The notes below the pieces were generated by a model, which did not search any database, was not told where the DNA came from, and saw only the letters and a program-made list of their open reading frames with translations. The position numbers and the translations under genes were made by a program. DNA of 32,532 bases, from assembly GCA_022450005.1 (NCBI GenBank), contig JAKURE010000006.1:1-32532 (forward strand). Direction: 5' to 3'. Position 1 is the first letter of the stretch; each line of letters opens with the position of its first letter. Of the stretch, positions 2-29,170 are shown in pieces. The DNA comes from Halobacteriales archaeon. GTDB taxonomy: Archaea; Halobacteriota; Halobacteria; Halobacteriales; Hikarchaeaceae.

Positions 2-1852
2 TTAGCAGGCGCTGATATAATCGTAGAAGGTTCTTTTAAAACACACAAAACCAATCCCTCTCCTTTAGAACCTCATGGATGCGTTGCTCATTATGACCGG
101 GCCGCTCCTAAACTAACACTATGGTCTTCAAACCAAGTACCTCATTTATTGAGAAAGTATGTCGCAGATACTATCCTCAATCTAGAAGTGGAACAAGTAG
201 TCTGCAAAATGCCAGATATTGGAGGTGGGTTCGGTGTCAAACTAGAACTATTTTCCCATGAAATATGTGCATCAGTACTTGCCATGGTAACTGGAAGGCC
301 AGTTAATATGGTTCTAGACCGAATAGAAGAATTAAAAGCTGGACGGGGAAGGCACCCTGAGACATTCACAGCAAAGTTAGGCTTGAAAAATGATGGTACC
401 ATTGTCGGAATGGATATCGACATGTTCCAAAATACAGGTGCTTACGGGAGTTTTGGAAAGACGATAGCATTTTCAGCAATGGCTACTTGCTCTGGTCCCT
501 ATCCTATTCCAAATCAACGCATCACTGGATCTGTCGTATATACAAATGTAATGCCAGGATCTGCAGTAAGGGGATACGGCGATCCCCAATTCACCTATGT
601 GCGAGAACAACTAGTTGATATGGCCGCAGAAGAATTGGGAATGGACCCAATCGATCTCCGACTAAAAAATGTCCCTCGAATAGAAGACATGCCCCTTCGA
701 ACACCATCTGGGCTTAAATGGGTAAACTCTGATATGCCTGAATGCCTCCATATAGTTCGGGACCGACTTAACTGGGACAAAGAACGCAGTAGTCCCAAGA
801 CCAATGATGGAAAACTCCGCGGCATTGGTATGGCAACAATCATGAAACGAGCAGGGAATAAAAGTGCCAAAGGAGCTGATTACTCCTCTGCAATAGTTCA
901 GATGAATCATTACGGACAAGTCACGGTTTTCTCGGGTATTTGCAGTATAGGACAGGGAACTGAAACTGCACTTTGCCAAATTGTAGCCGACGTCCTTGGG
1001 ATCTCCACCGATGACGTGACTCCTGTTATTGGAGACTCCGATATAACCACCGATGATATGGGTGTTTGGGCGGACCGGGGAACTATTATGGGTGGAACTT
1101 CTGCCGCAATGGCTGCGGAAAATCTAAAACATACAATCGATTCACTTTAAGCTTGTCACTTAAAAATAGATGAAGATGATGTAGAAATCGAAAATGGACA
1201 CATCCACGAAAAAGGAAACTCCGATAACGGAATCACTATGAAAGAACTAGCACACAAAGCTACATTTGGGGATCCAGAGGACCGTCCAGAAATTTTCAGA
1301 AAAGGTGTATCATTGGTGGGGGCAGCCAAGTTCGAAACACTTGAAGCAGAATTCTTAGATCCTGAAACTGGAACTGGAAATATTTCTCATGGATATACTT
1401 TCGGAGCCTTTGGGGTCATAGTGGAGATAGATCCTGGAACTGGAGTTGTCCAGGTAGTCGACGCAGCAATATGCGAAGATGTGGGAAAATTGATCAACCC
1501 AAAACTCCTAGAAGGACAAACCCAAGGTGGTATTATACACGGGTTGGGTGAAATACTACTCGAGGAGATGGTTTATGATTCAAATGGAAACCTAGAAAAT
1601 GGATCTCTAGTCGATTACCATCTGCCCACTGCCGCGGACGTACCTATGATTACTAAAATAGATGAACTTGAAAACCCCGATCCTTCCACTTCACATGGTC
1701 AAAAAGGAGCTGGTGAGTGTTCTACTGTCCCCGTCCCTGCGGCTATTGCAAATGCAGTTTATGATGCCACTGGAATCCGATTTTTCGAGGGTCCTTTAAC
1801 CCCTCGGCATGTTCTCCCCCGCCTGGTTGAAGCTGGACTAACAGAGCTATAG
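2..1852 (+). pseudogene. Xanthine dehydrogenase/CO dehydrogenase-type molybdopterin large subunit, 5'-truncated by the window and interrupted by one in-frame TAA at 1148-1150
   Basis: Frame is open from base 2 (LAGADIIVEGSFKTH...EPHGCVAHYD...LTLWSSNQVPH). ORFs 149-1150 and 1238-1852 share one frame, with no other stop between them. Motifs GGGFGVK, RGYGDPQ, IGQGTETALCQIVAD, GAGECSTVPVPAAIANAV are typical of the XDH/CoxL family. Confidence 0.85.
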
Positions 1853-10540: not shown

Positions 10541-12179
10541 CTTTGTTTCCTCTTGGATTGCTCCACTCCGTTTTGGCTACTACTGCACATGTACCACATT
10601 CAATACACGGTTGCGTATCTAAGCTAACCCGAAGTTCAATCTTGCCATCCACCTCTATTTCTTCCATGCGATAACAACCTCCTCCAAATCCAACAGCACT
10701 CACGGGACATGCAGTCACAGCACCACCACTTGCGGCATATGAGTTATCTATAAGTTCAATGTGTGGTTTTCCTATATCTGTATCATACGCTAGTTTACTA
10801 ATCCGATCTGCTAACTCTGGAGGATCTACTAAGTTTTTACTTTTAATTATTTCTCCCACTTCTTGACCAATTATTGTTGGGAGGGTAACGTATGGTGTGG
10901 AAGTATCTGGTATTGCCATCGATAAGATGGGTACGTTGTATAATTTTCCTATTCTTTTTCCCATTGTCCGTATTGCTGCTCGACCAACAGGAGAGGTCAA
11001 CACACCATCTACTATTGCAGTGGCAACTTTGTTCTCTGCCACTACCTTAACAACGCTATACATTGGAGGGCGGAGTTTACCCATAAGCCCAGTCTGACGA
11101 AGCTTTAATTCATATCTCTCACCAGCTTTCTCACTATCTCCTCTTTCTTTCATCTCCACAAAGGCTTCAGCTGCAAGCGCACCGGCTGTAACCGCATGGT
11201 TCATACCCTTTATTATCGGCCCTTGGGCCTGCATCTGACCTGCAGCATCCCCTACAAGTAAAAGACGATCCAAATGTGGATTTGGGTTTGCGGCCTTTTT
11301 TGAATCTGGTACTAGTTTAGCTGAATATTCCAATTCACAATAATCTTTGTCTAGCCATTGACCCAATAATGGGTGGGTTAATAATTTGTTTAATAACTCA
11401 TGACTCTCTGCTTCTTCCTCCATAATACTATCTAAGTGGAATACTGTCCCAATAGACAATGATTCCTGATTCGTATACAAGAACCCTCCACCTCGAACAC
11501 CTTCGAAAAGATCTCCCGAAAATAAATGAGCAATTCCTGTTTCTGGTTCTAAATCAAATATGTTATCTACTTCTTTTAGATCAACGACCACTTTCACACC
11601 TTGGAACCATTCTTCTGGGCGTTCCCAGTCCATTAACCCAGATGCACGAGCCAATTCGGATGTCACCCCATCTGCCGCAATCACCACATCTGCTGTGATT
11701 GGATCTATTTCGTCACAAGTTACTCCCTTGATTTTCCCATTTTCATCCCTTAACAACCCGTTCACGTGTATCCCATTTATGAGGCCACCACCCGTTTCTT
11801 GAGTCCTACTTTGTACTTCTTTTGAAAGCCAAGAATCCATTTTTCTTCTAAGAACTGAGTCACACCATTTTGTATCATACTCATGAAGACCCTTTAGGTC
11901 AAATGAAGCCACTTTTTCTCCAGATATATTGTGAAGTTTGTATTCTGTTATTGGCCTCTCTGTAGCTTCATTTCTAAATTCTGGAAAGAGATTATCAATA
12001 GTATATGGGGAAGATTCTTCCGCATATATAAGGCCGCCAGATACATTTTTTGATCCCGCTTCCATTCCCCTTTCCAACACGATCGTTTCAATATCATTCT
12101 CTGCCAGTACCGCAGCAGCAGCAGCACCACCTGGCCCTGCCCCCACTACTATCGCTTCATAGTGCTCGTATTCACGCAT
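10518..12179 (-). CDS. fixC: ETF-quinone oxidoreductase-like FixC with C-terminal FixX-like domain
   Basis: VVGAGPGGAAAAAVLAENDIETIVLERG FAD motif; LLVGDAAGQMQAQ; C-terminal TACPVSAV...QPCIECGTC...WSNPRGNKGVEFKHG resembles FixX. Confidence 0.9.
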   Translation of the reverse strand: MREYEHYEAIVVGAGPGGAAAAAVLAENDIETIVLERGMEAGSKNVSGGLIYAEESSPYTIDNLFPEFRNEATERPITEYKLHNISGEKVASFDLKGLHEYDTKWCDSVLRRKMDSWLSKEVQSRTQETGGGLINGIHVNGLLRDENGKIKGVTCDEIDPITADVVIAADGVTSELARASGLMDWERPEEWFQGVKVVVDLKEVDNIFDLEPETGIAHLFSGDLFEGVRGGGFLYTNQESLSIGTVFHLDSIMEEEAESHELLNKLLTHPLLGQWLDKDYCELEYSAKLVPDSKKAANPNPHLDRLLLVGDAAGQMQAQGPIIKGMNHAVTAGALAAEAFVEMKERGDSEKAGERYELKLRQTGLMGKLRPPMYSVVKVVAENKVATAIVDGVLTSPVGRAAIRTMGKRIGKLYNVPILSMAIPDTSTPYVTLPTIIGQEVGEIIKSKNLVDPPELADRISKLAYDTDIGKPHIELIDNSYAASGGAVTACPVSAVGFGGGCYRMEEIEVDGKIELRVSLDTQPCIECGTCAVVAKTEWSNPRGNKGVEFKHG

Positions 12180-13968
12180 TATTGTTTTCTCCTTTTATAA
12201 ATTTTGCTAGGTTCCCTTTCCCGACACTTAATTCTTCTACTAATTTAGGAATTATATCGAATAGGTCTCCTTGTATGAAGTAATCTGCAAAATCCCGAAT
12301 ATCTGCAGTTTCATCTTCATTTATTGCAACTATAATCTCCGATTCTACCATACCTGTCTTATGTTGAATCGCCCCCGATACTCCCAGTCCAATATACAAT
12401 TTTGGCTTTATCCATTGGCCAGTTTCTCCTATTTGTCTCTCTTCTTTTGCATATTGTTCCACCCTCCCCTCAAATTTGTAGGAAGATGTTACGATTCCTC
12501 TTGTTATTCCCAAAGCCGCGTTATCAAACATGCTTACAAGTTCCAATCCCAGATCAATTCCCCCAGTTGGATCTTTCCCAATTCCTCTCCCCATGCAGAC
12601 AATGACTTCATATTCTGTCAAATCTACTCCCGTTTCAACTTCTTCATTACCCACGATGGCCACGTCTACCCAACCATCCTCAATTTCCATCTCATGAGAA
12701 AACACCTCTCCCTTTCTATTAGATTCTAACTCTTTTACGGGGAAGCTCCTCGGAATAACGGATGCCCCTTGAGGATGAAATTCTCTGTGTGGGTTATCTA
12801 AACAAAGAATTGTTGAATACTCAAAACCAGAAAAATCGGGTCTCTTCATATGGAGTACTCGTTCAAATTTTTTCTTTGCACCAGGCATGCCCGTTTTAAC
12901 AGGATTCGTGATCACTATATTTTCTATGTATAGATCCGAACAGTCAGAAGCTAGACCCGAATCTAGTTCTGCTTGCACTTGGGCCGAAAGATCTCTCCCG
13001 TTATTCGTCGCAGGGAAAATAACATATCTAGGCTCGTCATATTTCTTCCACTTTGGCTGAGAACGAGACATGTCGCAGAAAACTTTTGTATAGGCGGTAT
13101 GGATAAAACGCGACAAAGAACTATGTTCTGTATATATGACAATGTCTGCTCCATGCCCAATACACTCATCTGCCAACCGTGCAATATTCTCCCCAATTAA
13201 AACAGCCACAACTTGTTCTTTTGCCTTGTAATCTTGGTTATATTTGTCCATCAATTCCCGTGCTTTTCCTAGCATCTCTCTGGACACATCTATGAGCTCT
13301 CCACGTTGTGTTTCACAATATACCCACATATCTTCGTATTTCCCCTCCTTTAACGCCCGAACATGCTTTTTATCCGCTGTAGGGTGATTTAGATATGGAT
13401 ACTTTTCTTCAGGAGCGATATATTCTATTGGTTCGAGTATTTCGACCCCTTCTATTGATTCTATCTTATTTTGTATTTGTTTTTTAACTGCAACTCTGTT
13501 CTCTCCGCCTTCTTCTTGAGCAAGTAACCCTCTCAATTCATCTGCACTTTCAATTCCTCTTATTGCATTTGCTATCCCTGCAATTGTCATTGATTTGACA
13601 TCGATTTCACCCTCTTCCACCTTCTCCGAGAATTTTTTTATCCGACTCTCAATCAATACTATTGCACTTGCTCTATTTTCACCAGATTTTTCAAGATCCA
13701 AAATGGCCTTCAAACTGGTCACGTCTTCTATCTCTCTAATTGCAGCCCCTATCTCTCGAATATCGTGGGAATTTGGATTGAATACTCCATCTCCTCCTGT
13801 CCCCCCACTTACATTTTCGATCCGTTCTGTAATTGCATTGATGGCTCCTTTTCGGCCCTTTCCTTCTTTTTCTGCCACCAGTATATTGTTTAATTCCTCA
13901 CTATCTTCTATCTTTGAAATCTCTTTCGTCAAATCTCCGATAGTCAATTTTTTTGGATCAATCGTCAC
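12172..13968 (-). CDS. etfA: Electron transfer flavoprotein alpha subunit with three N-terminal repeat domains; proposed GTG start at 13968
   Basis: C-terminal VCMGRGIG...RGIVTSSYKFEGRVEQYAKEERQIGETGQWIKPKLYIGLGVSGAIQHKTGM is EtfA. GTG ACG ATT GAT CCA begins next to the etfB stop and yields (M)TIDPKKLT. Confidence 0.92.
   Translation of the reverse strand: MTIDPKKLTIGDLTKEISKIEDSEELNNILVAEKEGKGRKGAINAITERIENVSGGTGGDGVFNPNSHDIREIGAAIREIEDVTSLKAILDLEKSGENRASAIVLIESRIKKFSEKVEEGEIDVKSMTIAGIANAIRGIESADELRGLLAQEEGGENRVAVKKQIQNKIESIEGVEILEPIEYIAPEEKYPYLNHPTADKKHVRALKEGKYEDMWVYCETQRGELIDVSREMLGKARELMDKYNQDYKAKEQVVAVLIGENIARLADECIGHGADIVIYTEHSSLSRFIHTAYTKVFCDMSRSQPKWKKYDEPRYVIFPATNNGRDLSAQVQAELDSGLASDCSDLYIENIVITNPVKTGMPGAKKKFERVLHMKRPDFSGFEYSTILCLDNPHREFHPQGASVIPRSFPVKELESNRKGEVFSHEMEIEDGWVDVAIVGNEEVETGVDLTEYEVIVCMGRGIGKDPTGGIDLGLELVSMFDNAALGITRGIVTSSYKFEGRVEQYAKEERQIGETGQWIKPKLYIGLGVSGAIQHKTGMVESEIIVAINEDETADIRDFADYFIQGDLFDIIPKLVEELSVGKGNLAKFIKGENNNA
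13447..13968 (-). repeat. Three tandem ~50-aa protein repeats at the N-terminus of EtfA
   Basis: VTIDPKKLTIGDLTKEISKIEDSEELNNILVAEKEGKGRKGAINAITERIENV; NPNSHDIREIGAAIREIEDVTSLKAILDLEKSGENRASAIVLIESRIKKF; DVKSMTIAGIANAIRGIESADELRGLLAQEEGGENRVAVKKQIQNKIESI. Confidence 0.9.
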
Positions 13969-13969
13969 G

Positions 13970-14845
13970 TCATTTCCCCCCTGCAAATGGTGCCATTATT
14001 CCTAACATCTCTTCCAATCCACTCTTGTTTTCTAGATCTATGATTGTTGCCTCTCTATCTGAGGGTGCCTTTGGGATCGGATCCACACGACCCACAATCG
14101 TAGGTGATCCATCCAGCCCAATGAAATCTGGATCCAAATTCAACTCCTTGTGGTCCCACATGGTCAAAGTCTCTTCATAAGCATCCGATCTCACTTGCGT
14201 TTCTTCAGTCAAATTTTGCAATCTTAGCCTGTGGGATGCCCGTGGATATTCTGCTTCAAATTCTGGATCTGGTATTACAAAACAAGGTAGATCAACTTCA
14301 ACCGTTTCTATCTCCTTAATGTCTCCTTGAACCAGCCGTCTTGCTCTTATTTTCCTTTCATCTACATCTACATCCAAACTCACCACATGCGTGATTATTG
14401 GCCACTCAAGTGCCCAACTAGTTTGGGGACCTGTATGTCCTGTCTCACCATCTGCAGTTTTAAAACCTGCAAAAACAATATCTGGAGTAGGATCGAGCTT
14501 TTCCACCGCTGAACAAATAGTTATGGCAGTAGCCCATGTATCTGCTGCTGCCATTTCCCTATCGGATAATAAGTACAACTCATCAGCATAGATGTTCATA
14601 GCCTCTTGCAATATTTCTTTGTAGCCTGGAGGCCCCATGCTCATCACCGTAATTTTTCCACCACTACGGACTTTTGTCTGCAGTGCAGCTTTCATGGCAA
14701 AACGATCATTGGGATTCATCACTGTTGGAGTTTTGCCCCTTTCCAAGTGCCCATGCTCATCAAACGAAACTTTTCCTTCTCGAAAGTCCGGCACACCCTT
14801 CGTTAACACAACAATATCGATGTCAGAACTGTTGTTATCCATCAT
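13970..14845 (-). CDS. etfB: Electron transfer flavoprotein beta subunit
   Basis: VVLTKGVPDF, MNPNDRFAMKAALQ, VMSMGPPGYKEILQEAMNIYADELYLLSDREMAAADTWATA, FAGFKTADGETGHTGPQ. Confidence 0.95.
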   Translation of the reverse strand: MMDNNSSDIDIVVLTKGVPDFREGKVSFDEHGHLERGKTPTVMNPNDRFAMKAALQTKVRSGGKITVMSMGPPGYKEILQEAMNIYADELYLLSDREMAAADTWATAITICSAVEKLDPTPDIVFAGFKTADGETGHTGPQTSWALEWPIITHVVSLDVDVDERKIRARRLVQGDIKEIETVEVDLPCFVIPDPEFEAEYPRASHRLRLQNLTEETQVRSDAYEETLTMWDHKELNLDPDFIGLDGSPTIVGRVDPIPKAPSDREATIIDLENKSGLEEMLGIMAPFAGGK

Positions 14846-17096: not shown

Positions 17097-17211
17097 GCCC
17101 CGATGGCTTAGAGGTTATAGCGCCACACTCATAGGGACAAAGAGAATGTAATCTTTCATTCTCGTGGTCTGGGACATGTGGAGGTCGCTGGTTCGACTCC
17201 GGCTCGGGGCA
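17097..17211 (+). tRNA. tRNA-Met(CAT), elongator type, with a 42-nt intron at 17134-17175 (position 37/38)
   Basis: Acceptor GCCCCGA/TCGGGGC; anticodon stem CCACA/TGTGG; loop CTCATA|A; T-arm GCTGG-TTCGACT-CCGGC; intron carries a GAGAATG...CATTCTC hairpin. Confidence 0.93.
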
Positions 17212-24688: not shown

Positions 24689-24830
24689 TTATATGTATAA
24701 AATAGTCTAATGGTCATCTGTAGATGACCGAAGCAGCTCCACCGAAAAGCTGCTTTATCACTGTTATTGAGCCACGCTAATGGATCCTGCCTCGACTGAG
24801 ACAGGGATATGCTAAGTCTTCATAAATAAT
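24689..24830 (+). ncRNA. Candidate small structured RNA between cca and the Cys-rich ORF
   Basis: TATA-like ttatatgtataaaata (24689-24704), then hairpins ggtcatc-tgta-gatgacc, aagcagct...agctgctt and a CCTG-c-CTC-gact-GAG-a-CAGG hairpin; no convincing ORF. Confidence 0.35.
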
Positions 24831-24917
24831 GTATAGTTGGGAGGGAATATAAACTCTATGCTATTTGATATCATATATCACAAAATATATAAACTACCGT
24901 GTGCATCCATATACCCA

Positions 24918-25073
24918 ATGGACTGTGACAATCCCCATTGCCAATGTGATCCCTGCACGTGCGACCCCTGTCTCTGCACGGAAGAAACACCTTGCACGTG
25001 CGGTAAACCTTCCCTACTCGAGCGTATATTCTCCAACATGGAACATGCATCCGATTTACATTATTATGAATAA
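24918..25073 (+). CDS. Cys-rich CxC-type (metallothionein-like) micro-protein 1
   Basis: MDCDNPHCQCDPCTCDPCLCTEETPCTCGKPSLLERIFSNMEHASDLHYYE*; paralogue at 28916 with largely synonymous differences. A TATA-like atatataa sits about 25-30 bp upstream. Confidence 0.85.
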   Translation: MDCDNPHCQCDPCTCDPCLCTEETPCTCGKPSLLERIFSNMEHASDLHYYE

Positions 25074-25080
25074 TTAGTTA

Positions 25081-25515
25081 TTATTCTTCCAAAATTTTCA
25101 CACAAGTCTCTATGTCTTCTTTTTGGATGGTCTTCCTCCCTGCATGACGTGACAGGATCGCGCCCTTTCTTGCTATTTGGTCTGCATAATCTTCTAGATA
25201 TACTGCAAGAATCAATCTCGCATCATTGCCAATTCTATACCGATCATCAATTTCCGATCGCGCAATGCGATCAACAGGGGCAATAGGTAATACTAGCTCT
25301 CTTTCAGAATCTCTTTCTCCAATATCGAAATCTCCTTCCTGGATGGTTTTTCTCCCATTTTCTCTCGCAATTTTAGCAGCCTCAATTGTGAGATTTGCAC
25401 CTTCTATTTGAATCAAACGGGCCAACTCTTCAGTTGCCTCAGAACTCACCCGGAGTGCACCCGAGTTCCTACGAATAATCGTATCTACTGGGGCAAATGG
25501 CAATTCCATACTCAT
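25081..25515 (-). CDS. Doublet archaeal histone (two fused histone folds)
   Basis: LPFAPVDTIIRRNSGALRVSSEATEELARLIQ...AKIARENGRKTIQEGDF, then LPIAPVDRIARSEIDDRYRIGNDARLILAVYLEDYA...HAGRKTIQKEDI. Confidence 0.95.
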   Translation of the reverse strand: MSMELPFAPVDTIIRRNSGALRVSSEATEELARLIQIEGANLTIEAAKIARENGRKTIQEGDFDIGERDSERELVLPIAPVDRIARSEIDDRYRIGNDARLILAVYLEDYADQIARKGAILSRHAGRKTIQKEDIETCVKILEE

Positions 25516-28373: not shown

Positions 28374-28640
28374 ATGTCTATTGACCCATCAAAACTCACC
28401 GTCGGTAATCTGTTAAAAGAAATCTCAAATATTGAGGATATCAACGAATTAAAAGAGATCTTATCTGCAGAAACAACAGGAAAAAATCGCAAAGGTGCAC
28501 TGAGCGGAATTCAACAACAGATCGAATCAATTGAAGTTCTTGGCCCCAGTGGAGTTGCCTCTCCAAACCGATATTTGAAACCACTATATTATCTTGTATT
28601 CATACTCCTCGCCGCCTGGGCAATCTCGAATTTCATTTAA
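28374..28640 (+). CDS. Stand-alone EtfA-repeat-like domain with C-terminal TM anchor; start corrected to ATG at 28374
   Basis: MSIDPSKLTVGNLLKEISNIEDINELKEILSAETTGKNRKGALSGIQQQIESIEVLG aligns to the EtfA repeats; C-terminus YYLVFILLAAWAISNFI is hydrophobic. GAGG is upstream. Confidence 0.88.
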   Translation: MSIDPSKLTVGNLLKEISNIEDINELKEILSAETTGKNRKGALSGIQQQIESIEVLGPSGVASPNRYLKPLYYLVFILLAAWAISNFI

Positions 28641-28646
28641 TGATCT

Positions 28647-28853
28647 ATGAAACTAATAGTGGTAAATCAAAATAACCCCGAACGAATCTTTCGAGCAATG
28701 GTCGCACTTATATTTTTAGGTATGGCTGTATTTATGGATCCGGGACTTTTGCGCCTCATTTCCCTCTTCAGTGGACTTGGATTGATGTTTAATGCAATCA
28801 CTGGAACTTGTTTCTTTTACCGATTCCTTGGGTACAGTAGCTGCCCAACCTGA
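28647..28853 (+). CDS. DUF2892/YgaP-TM-like membrane protein
   Basis: NNPERIFRAMVALIFLGMAVFM...LRLISLFSGLGLMFNAITGTCFFYRFLGYSSCP. Confidence 0.8.
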   Translation: MKLIVVNQNNPERIFRAMVALIFLGMAVFMDPGLLRLISLFSGLGLMFNAITGTCFFYRFLGYSSCPT

Positions 28854-28915
28854 ACTTGATTCCCGCTATCATTTAACACAAAAGAATATGCCCTGTCAAT
28901 TCCTACCTATATCAA

Positions 28916-29017
28916 ATGTGTTGTAATGATACTCCCCATTCCCACTGTTGCCAATGCCACCCATGTACATGCGATCCTTGTCTCTGCACCGAAGAAGATC
29001 CTTGCAGATGCATGTAA
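28916..29017 (+). CDS. Cys-rich CxC-type (metallothionein-like) micro-protein 2 (not in supplied ORF track)
   Basis: MCCNDTPHSHCCQCHPCTCDPCLCTEEDPCRCM*; 33 aa with 11 Cys; core CQCxPCTCDPCLCTEExPCxC shared with 24918-25073. Confidence 0.85.
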   Translation: MCCNDTPHSHCCQCHPCTCDPCLCTEEDPCRCM

Positions 29018-29056: not shown

Positions 29057-29170
29057 ATGACTATTGACCCATCAGACCAATATACAAAAAATCTAGTGAT
29101 TGGCCAAGTAGTACTCTATACCTTATTAGTACTCGCAGCCATTTCTTTCGCTTATTTTTTTATAAATTAA
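29057..29170 (+). CDS. 37-aa single-TM micro-protein (not in supplied ORF track)
   Basis: MTIDPSDQYTKNLVIGQVVLYTLLVLAAISFAYFFIN*; AGGAG upstream; N-terminus matches MSIDPS of 28374 and TIDPK of EtfA. Confidence 0.7.
   Translation: MTIDPSDQYTKNLVIGQVVLYTLLVLAAISFAYFFIN

Follow-up and report, generated by a model that had tools for sequence, protein, structure and literature searches.

The window, meaning the whole 32,532-nucleotide stretch of DNA that was analysed, contains two genes for CxC-rich micro-proteins, copy A (MDCDNPHCQCDPCTCDPCLCTEETPCTCGKPSLLERIFSNMEHASDLHYYE) and copy B (MCCNDTPHSHCCQCHPCTCDPCLCTEEDPCRCM), which lie where the earlier note had placed them (Table 1). Its densest 29-residue stretch holds 10 Cys, compared to 5-7 when the window was simulated 60 times with an order-2 Markov model, and the arrangement CxCxxCxCxxCxC occurs twice versus 0 times in the simulations, a Cys density far beyond chance. 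All nine Cys of copy A fall within its first 28 residues, and the short Cys-free tail described earlier for this copy is not only present but itself conserved, with the pattern KPSLL.RI.S.ME..S..HYYE kept in two further species. Aromatic residues are absent from the Cys core of copy A in this genome (G000) and from copy B, and the tail of copy A ends HYYE. A helix in this tail, at residues 33-45 of copy A, appears in a predicted structure of low confidence (pLDDT 60).

The MAG containing the window (G000; 1.01 Mb, 71% complete) is archaeal, which bears out the host proposed for the two copies, and its nearest named relatives are the Marine Group IV archaea HikBin4 and HikBin5 together with one Halobacteriales MAG. 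We take the HikBin genomes to be Hikarchaeia. The Hikarchaeia are closely akin to haloarchaea (PMC7599335).

Table 1. Coordinates of features in the window (position 1 is its first nucleotide).
Feature	Position	Strand	Observation
Helical-repeat protein	12172-13986	-	604 aa
tRNA match (Rfam)	17097-17211	+	115 bases; missed by ARAGORN
Intergenic block upstream of copy A	24706-24820	+	conserved in G003 and G002
36-bp block upstream of copy A	24856-24891	+	identical in three species
Palindrome TGATAT-CAT-ATATCA inside the 36-bp block	24866-24880	+	occurs once in the genome
Element TATCATNNANCACAAAA upstream of copy A, common to copy B	24869-24885	+	pattern match
Copy A TATA box TATATAAA	24886-24893	+	first seven bases inside or adjoining the conserved block
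Copy A, CxC-rich micro-protein	24918-25073	+	51 aa, 9 Cys; translation; orthologues in G003 and G002
Copy A Cys-free tail	residues 29-51, bases 25002-25070	+	conserved
Archaeal histone doublet	25081-25515	-	144 aa; two histone folds in one protein
88-aa protein, first in copy B cluster	28374-28640	+	C-terminal membrane segment; homologues in L028 and L029
YgaP-like transmembrane protein (PF11127), copy B cluster	28647-28853	+	Pfam E 2.2e-11; conserved in L028 and L029
Element TATCATNNANCACAAAA upstream of copy B	28867-28883	+	distance to ATG equals that of copy A
Copy B, CxC-rich micro-protein, tail absent	28916-29017	+	33 aa, 11 Cys; translation; orthologues in G001 and G003
37-aa micro-protein 3' of copy B	29057-29170	+	single membrane segment; translation

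Family members were found in all four genomes of the genus (the Marine Group IV, or Hikarchaeia, MAGs G000 to G003), at one or both loci, for a total of six archaeal copies. The copy A orthologues are full-length and, like those of copy B, occupy the same position as in G000; the archaeal gene in Marine Group IV is chromosomal and syntenic. Comparison of copy A between G000 and G003 gave 21.5 synonymous differences over 29.7 sites and 16.5 non-synonymous differences over 123.3 sites (pN 0.13), with an omega of about 0.06 that is approximate because dS is close to saturation; the dN/dS check on homologues proposed in the earlier note thus returned a substitution pattern that is not coding-neutral. 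Substitutions fell 9/7/22 over the three codon positions. Across 19 core codons, the 9 changes between copy A of G000 and copy B of G003 are all synonymous. For the two copies in the window, a previous count of seven synonymous and three nonsynonymous differences over 21 codons became 8.5 and 3.5 over 19 core codons on recounting, leaving its conclusion unchanged: with synonymous sites near saturation, the peptide conserved and orthologues in the genus, each of the two encodes a protein that purifying selection maintains. Copies A and B are real genes.

The two loci have different neighbours. Copy A is flanked in G000, G003 and G002 by the gene for CCA-adding enzyme on one side and the histone doublet on the other, and in three species the doublet runs convergently towards copy A, the two 3' ends lying 7 bases apart. 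Copy B follows the 88-aa protein, whose homologues in L028 and L029 (the latter a contig of G003) have the identical start Met, and the YgaP-like protein; its orthologues in G001 and G003 are each preceded by a membrane protein of the 88-aa type and a YgaP-like protein. An ORF similar to the 37-aa micro-protein stands at the equivalent position in L028 and not in L029. No metal-regulatory gene adjoins copy A or copy B.

The 88-aa protein, for which Pfam gave no match, contains a single copy of a helical unit, about 50 residues long, of which the 604-aa protein has three at its start. Near copy B in G003, contig L029 encodes a MauE-type membrane protein (543-1157, minus strand; PF07291) with a weak YHS/zinc-ribbon-like N-terminus, and this protein was not seen beside copy B in the window. 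The tRNA matched by Rfam probably contains an intron.

The TATA-like box that had been noticed upstream of copy A is real and is closely preceded by the palindrome. Because the box ends about 25 bp 5' of the ATG, the promoter geometry is compatible with the leaderless start suggested earlier, and the copy A transcript may well be leaderless. Identity of the 36-bp block holds although the synonymous divergence of two of the three species from the third is close to saturation, and the block with its palindrome is a candidate operator. Element TATCATNNANCACAAAA has two matches in the window versus 0.05 expected for a pattern itself drawn from these two sites, and allowing one mismatch adds no further site there. 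At equal distance from the ATG, the upstream regions of copies A and B agree at 17 of 22 positions, a value reached in 0 of 2000 simulations; similarity is weaker (15/22) upstream of copy B in G001, and the element was not seen upstream of copy B in G003. An ArsR-type HTH_5 protein, found in three of the four MAGs, is no more than a candidate regulator. The intergenic block further upstream shows two stable stems with three compensatory pairs and is possibly an unannotated structured RNA; it matches no Rfam family, and the single G003 and G002 sequences fold no better than shuffles.

The description of these genes as an archaeal family proved too narrow, since among the Halobacteriota genomes searched they turned up in a single genus, and marine phage contigs hold many members of this family. 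In IMG/VR viral contigs, a DNA pattern encoding C-x-C-[DE]-P-C-x-C-T-E matched 111 stretches, compared to 2 for a permuted control pattern, and these gave 93 motif frames (92 of them shorter than 100 aa) that collapse to 56 distinct peptides, placing the family in about 90 phage contigs of several phage types. Conservation extends outside the searched pattern, with C at -5 in 55/56 peptides, N at -8 in 52/56, C at -10 in 48/56 and C at +13 in 54/56. When 24 peptides from archaea and phages were aligned, eight columns showed Cys with little or no exception, and Pro, Thr and Asn are also invariant. An HMM built from phage peptides only, leaving out those with CTCDPCL, scored the six archaeal copies at 16.5-40.8 bits, and 0 of 2000 composition shuffles of each copy equalled its own score. 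The archaeal copies carry the family motif, M-x-C-x-N-x2-C-x4-C-x-C-[DE]-P-C-x-C-T-E-x3-C-x-C, with copy B variants deviating at single positions. Judged by motif and profile, the archaeal and phage peptides are one family.

The expectation of conserved homologues in related genomes held within the genus and failed beyond it, as a profile search of 198 other Halobacteriota genomes found no relative. In about 300 Halobacteriales genomes the only match outside the genus was marginal (E 0.009) and had no family motif. Weak single-sequence matches in haloarchaea (E 0.005-0.9) were rejected, the motif being absent from the five short-frame ones inspected. For bacterial genomes, the one scan of genome contigs used the archaeal patterns DPCLCT or CQCxxCTC, which would miss DPCECT members. 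Pfam, NCBIfam and PHROGs contain no convincing model, the best being a short match (E 0.014) to a PHROG family of unknown function. With the peptides as tblastn queries, named phages and plasmids gave no match, a weak negative because the BLAST low-complexity filter may mask Cys-rich queries, and the whole records of the named T4-like relatives HTVC008M and Melnitz-1 also gave none.

On phage contig L038, the family member neighbours genes for terminase subunits, and the phage is T4-like, with pelagiphage HTVC008M and Methylophilales phage Melnitz as relatives; such relatives are the reason the phage contigs are taken as marine. Other phage neighbours include Hsp20, DUF1353, a 2OG-Fe(II) oxygenase, a nuclease homologue and another terminase. 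The variety of phage types and positions suggests that the family member is a cargo gene in marine tailed phages. A 716-residue phage frame (L065 4452-6602, minus strand) contains the motif CECENCECDPCECTE, so the cluster may also exist as a domain. The phage connection of this archaeal micro-protein pair is unexpected.

P-type ATPases (PF00122), CDF exporters (PF01545) and HMA domains (PF00403) were found in 0 of the four Marine Group IV MAGs (58-78% complete), compared to 14/14, 14/14 and 13/14 control genomes, respectively. The chance that incompleteness hid a gene in all four MAGs is about 1% for each family (0.29 x 0.30 x 0.22 x 0.42) if the MAGs are independent and all four species have the gene. 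These missing exporters, in four incomplete MAGs, lend indirect support to a metal-buffer reading, and their absence might possibly reflect genome streamlining instead.

Copies A and B have the small size and the wealth of Cys in CxC and CxxC motifs by which metallothioneins are recognized; the anatomy is one of 8-11 thiols in such an array and little else in the peptide. We consider it probable, from their sequences, that they are metallothionein-like metal-thiolate peptides buffering Zn(II) or Cu(I). The YgaP-like neighbour of copy B counts for this reading; the HYYE aromatics in the tail of copy A, unusual for metallothioneins, the lack of a metal-regulatory gene beside either copy, and the low confidence of the predicted structure (pLDDT 60) count against it. 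The Cys array of each peptide would fold around a small cytosolic metal-thiolate cluster, storing or buffering a soft metal; the conserved tail of copy A, possibly a short helix, may anchor or target the cluster, and copy B, grouped with three small membrane proteins, may act near the membrane. The two copies probably share a type of promoter element, with copy A mRNA presumably leaderless, and marine tailed phages would carry the same family as cargo. We infer metal binding, metal identity, stoichiometry, metal regulation and the standing-in of sequestration for missing export. A broader proposal, in which a metallothionein family outside all curated models, spread by marine tailed phages, was fixed in Marine Group IV as a pair of regulated genes, with sequestration replacing P-type ATPase/CDF/HMA export as the main control of soft metals, is possible but doubtful.

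The association of copy B with three small membrane proteins, one of them YgaP-like, would also suit a metal chaperone or assembly factor that supplies a single client, such as the terminal oxidase, with Cu(I) or Zn, with copy B serving its membrane neighbours, and an HMA-type chaperone was not found in the four MAGs. Such clustering fails for copy A, between CCA-adding enzyme and histone genes, and phage members have no such membrane-protein neighbours, making this role unlikely. We give slightly less credence to a small zinc-finger-like structural or regulatory protein that holds one Zn and contacts nucleic acid or protein: CxC runs with at least 8 Cys in about 27 residues and no spaced knuckle pair are unlike zinc fingers, and the profile search of about 300 Halobacteriales genomes gave no convincing match, even if a histone gene adjoins copy A and the haloarchaea, a sister lineage, have many zinc-finger micro-proteins (PMC11241148).

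Redox buffering by thiols, or scavenging of oxidants, without any cellular metal role is conceivable in principle for any dense thiol peptide, and nothing specific to it was found; the spacing, which is conserved, and the Pro, Thr and Asn, which are invariant, instead suggest a defined cluster rather than mere thiol content, and we hold this role to be very improbable. That there is no gene here, and each copy is a chance Cys-rich frame of the kind that short ORFs commonly represent, is refuted by the conservation data and can practically be dismissed, given the Markov simulation, the codon-position pattern, purifying selection, synteny and phage relatives.

If the metallothionein-like reading is correct, archaea gain a sequence-defined metallothionein candidate, metal-binding peptides are shown to be cargo of marine phages, and sequestration-based metal handling is tied to a lineage of the deep sea placed between methanogens and haloarchaea. 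Phage, viral and archaeal metallothionein are terms absent from the papers searched, a set outside which most subscription journals lie. A survey of the Haloferax mediterranei genome sought metallothioneins and found none (PMC9240420).

Like the haloarchaeal C(P)XCG zinc-finger micro-proteins of the sister lineage (PMC11241148, PMC10716476), the family members are Cys-containing and below 70 aa, but their Cys are far denser and they are without the CPXCG pair; on inspection CPXCG occurred in 0 of the six archaeal copies, none of which has two C(P)XCG motifs. With eukaryotic metallothioneins (PF12749 and others) they have in common CxC arrays that lack other features, and one phage peptide gave a match there, only at chance level (E 3.1). 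We know of no conserved N, DP and TE positions in eukaryotic metallothioneins. SmtA/BmtA and Pseudomonas metallothionein (PF02069, Metallothio_Pro; PDB 1JJD, 6GV6/6GV7) are likewise small and Cys-rich, and the N-terminus of SmtA has the short string CxCxPCLC in common with the family. Kinship through this string was ruled out: the phage-only profile scored SmtA at 2.9 bits, equalled by 7 of 2000 SmtA shuffles, and because it does not detect SmtA the family is not of SmtA type. The YCSxxCAxxH zinc-finger part and C-terminal CxxxxCxC of SmtA are missing from the family, YCSxxCAxxH being absent after the first CxCxxCxC in six of six archaeal copies (SmtA sequence verified against 1JJD), and PF02069 had no match in Pfam scans or in the genome, with Synechococcus elongatus positive as a control. 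SmtA and BmtA nevertheless act through a metal-thiolate cluster, as is proposed for the present family, and marine cyanobacteria use BmtA for zinc banking (PMC9337993).
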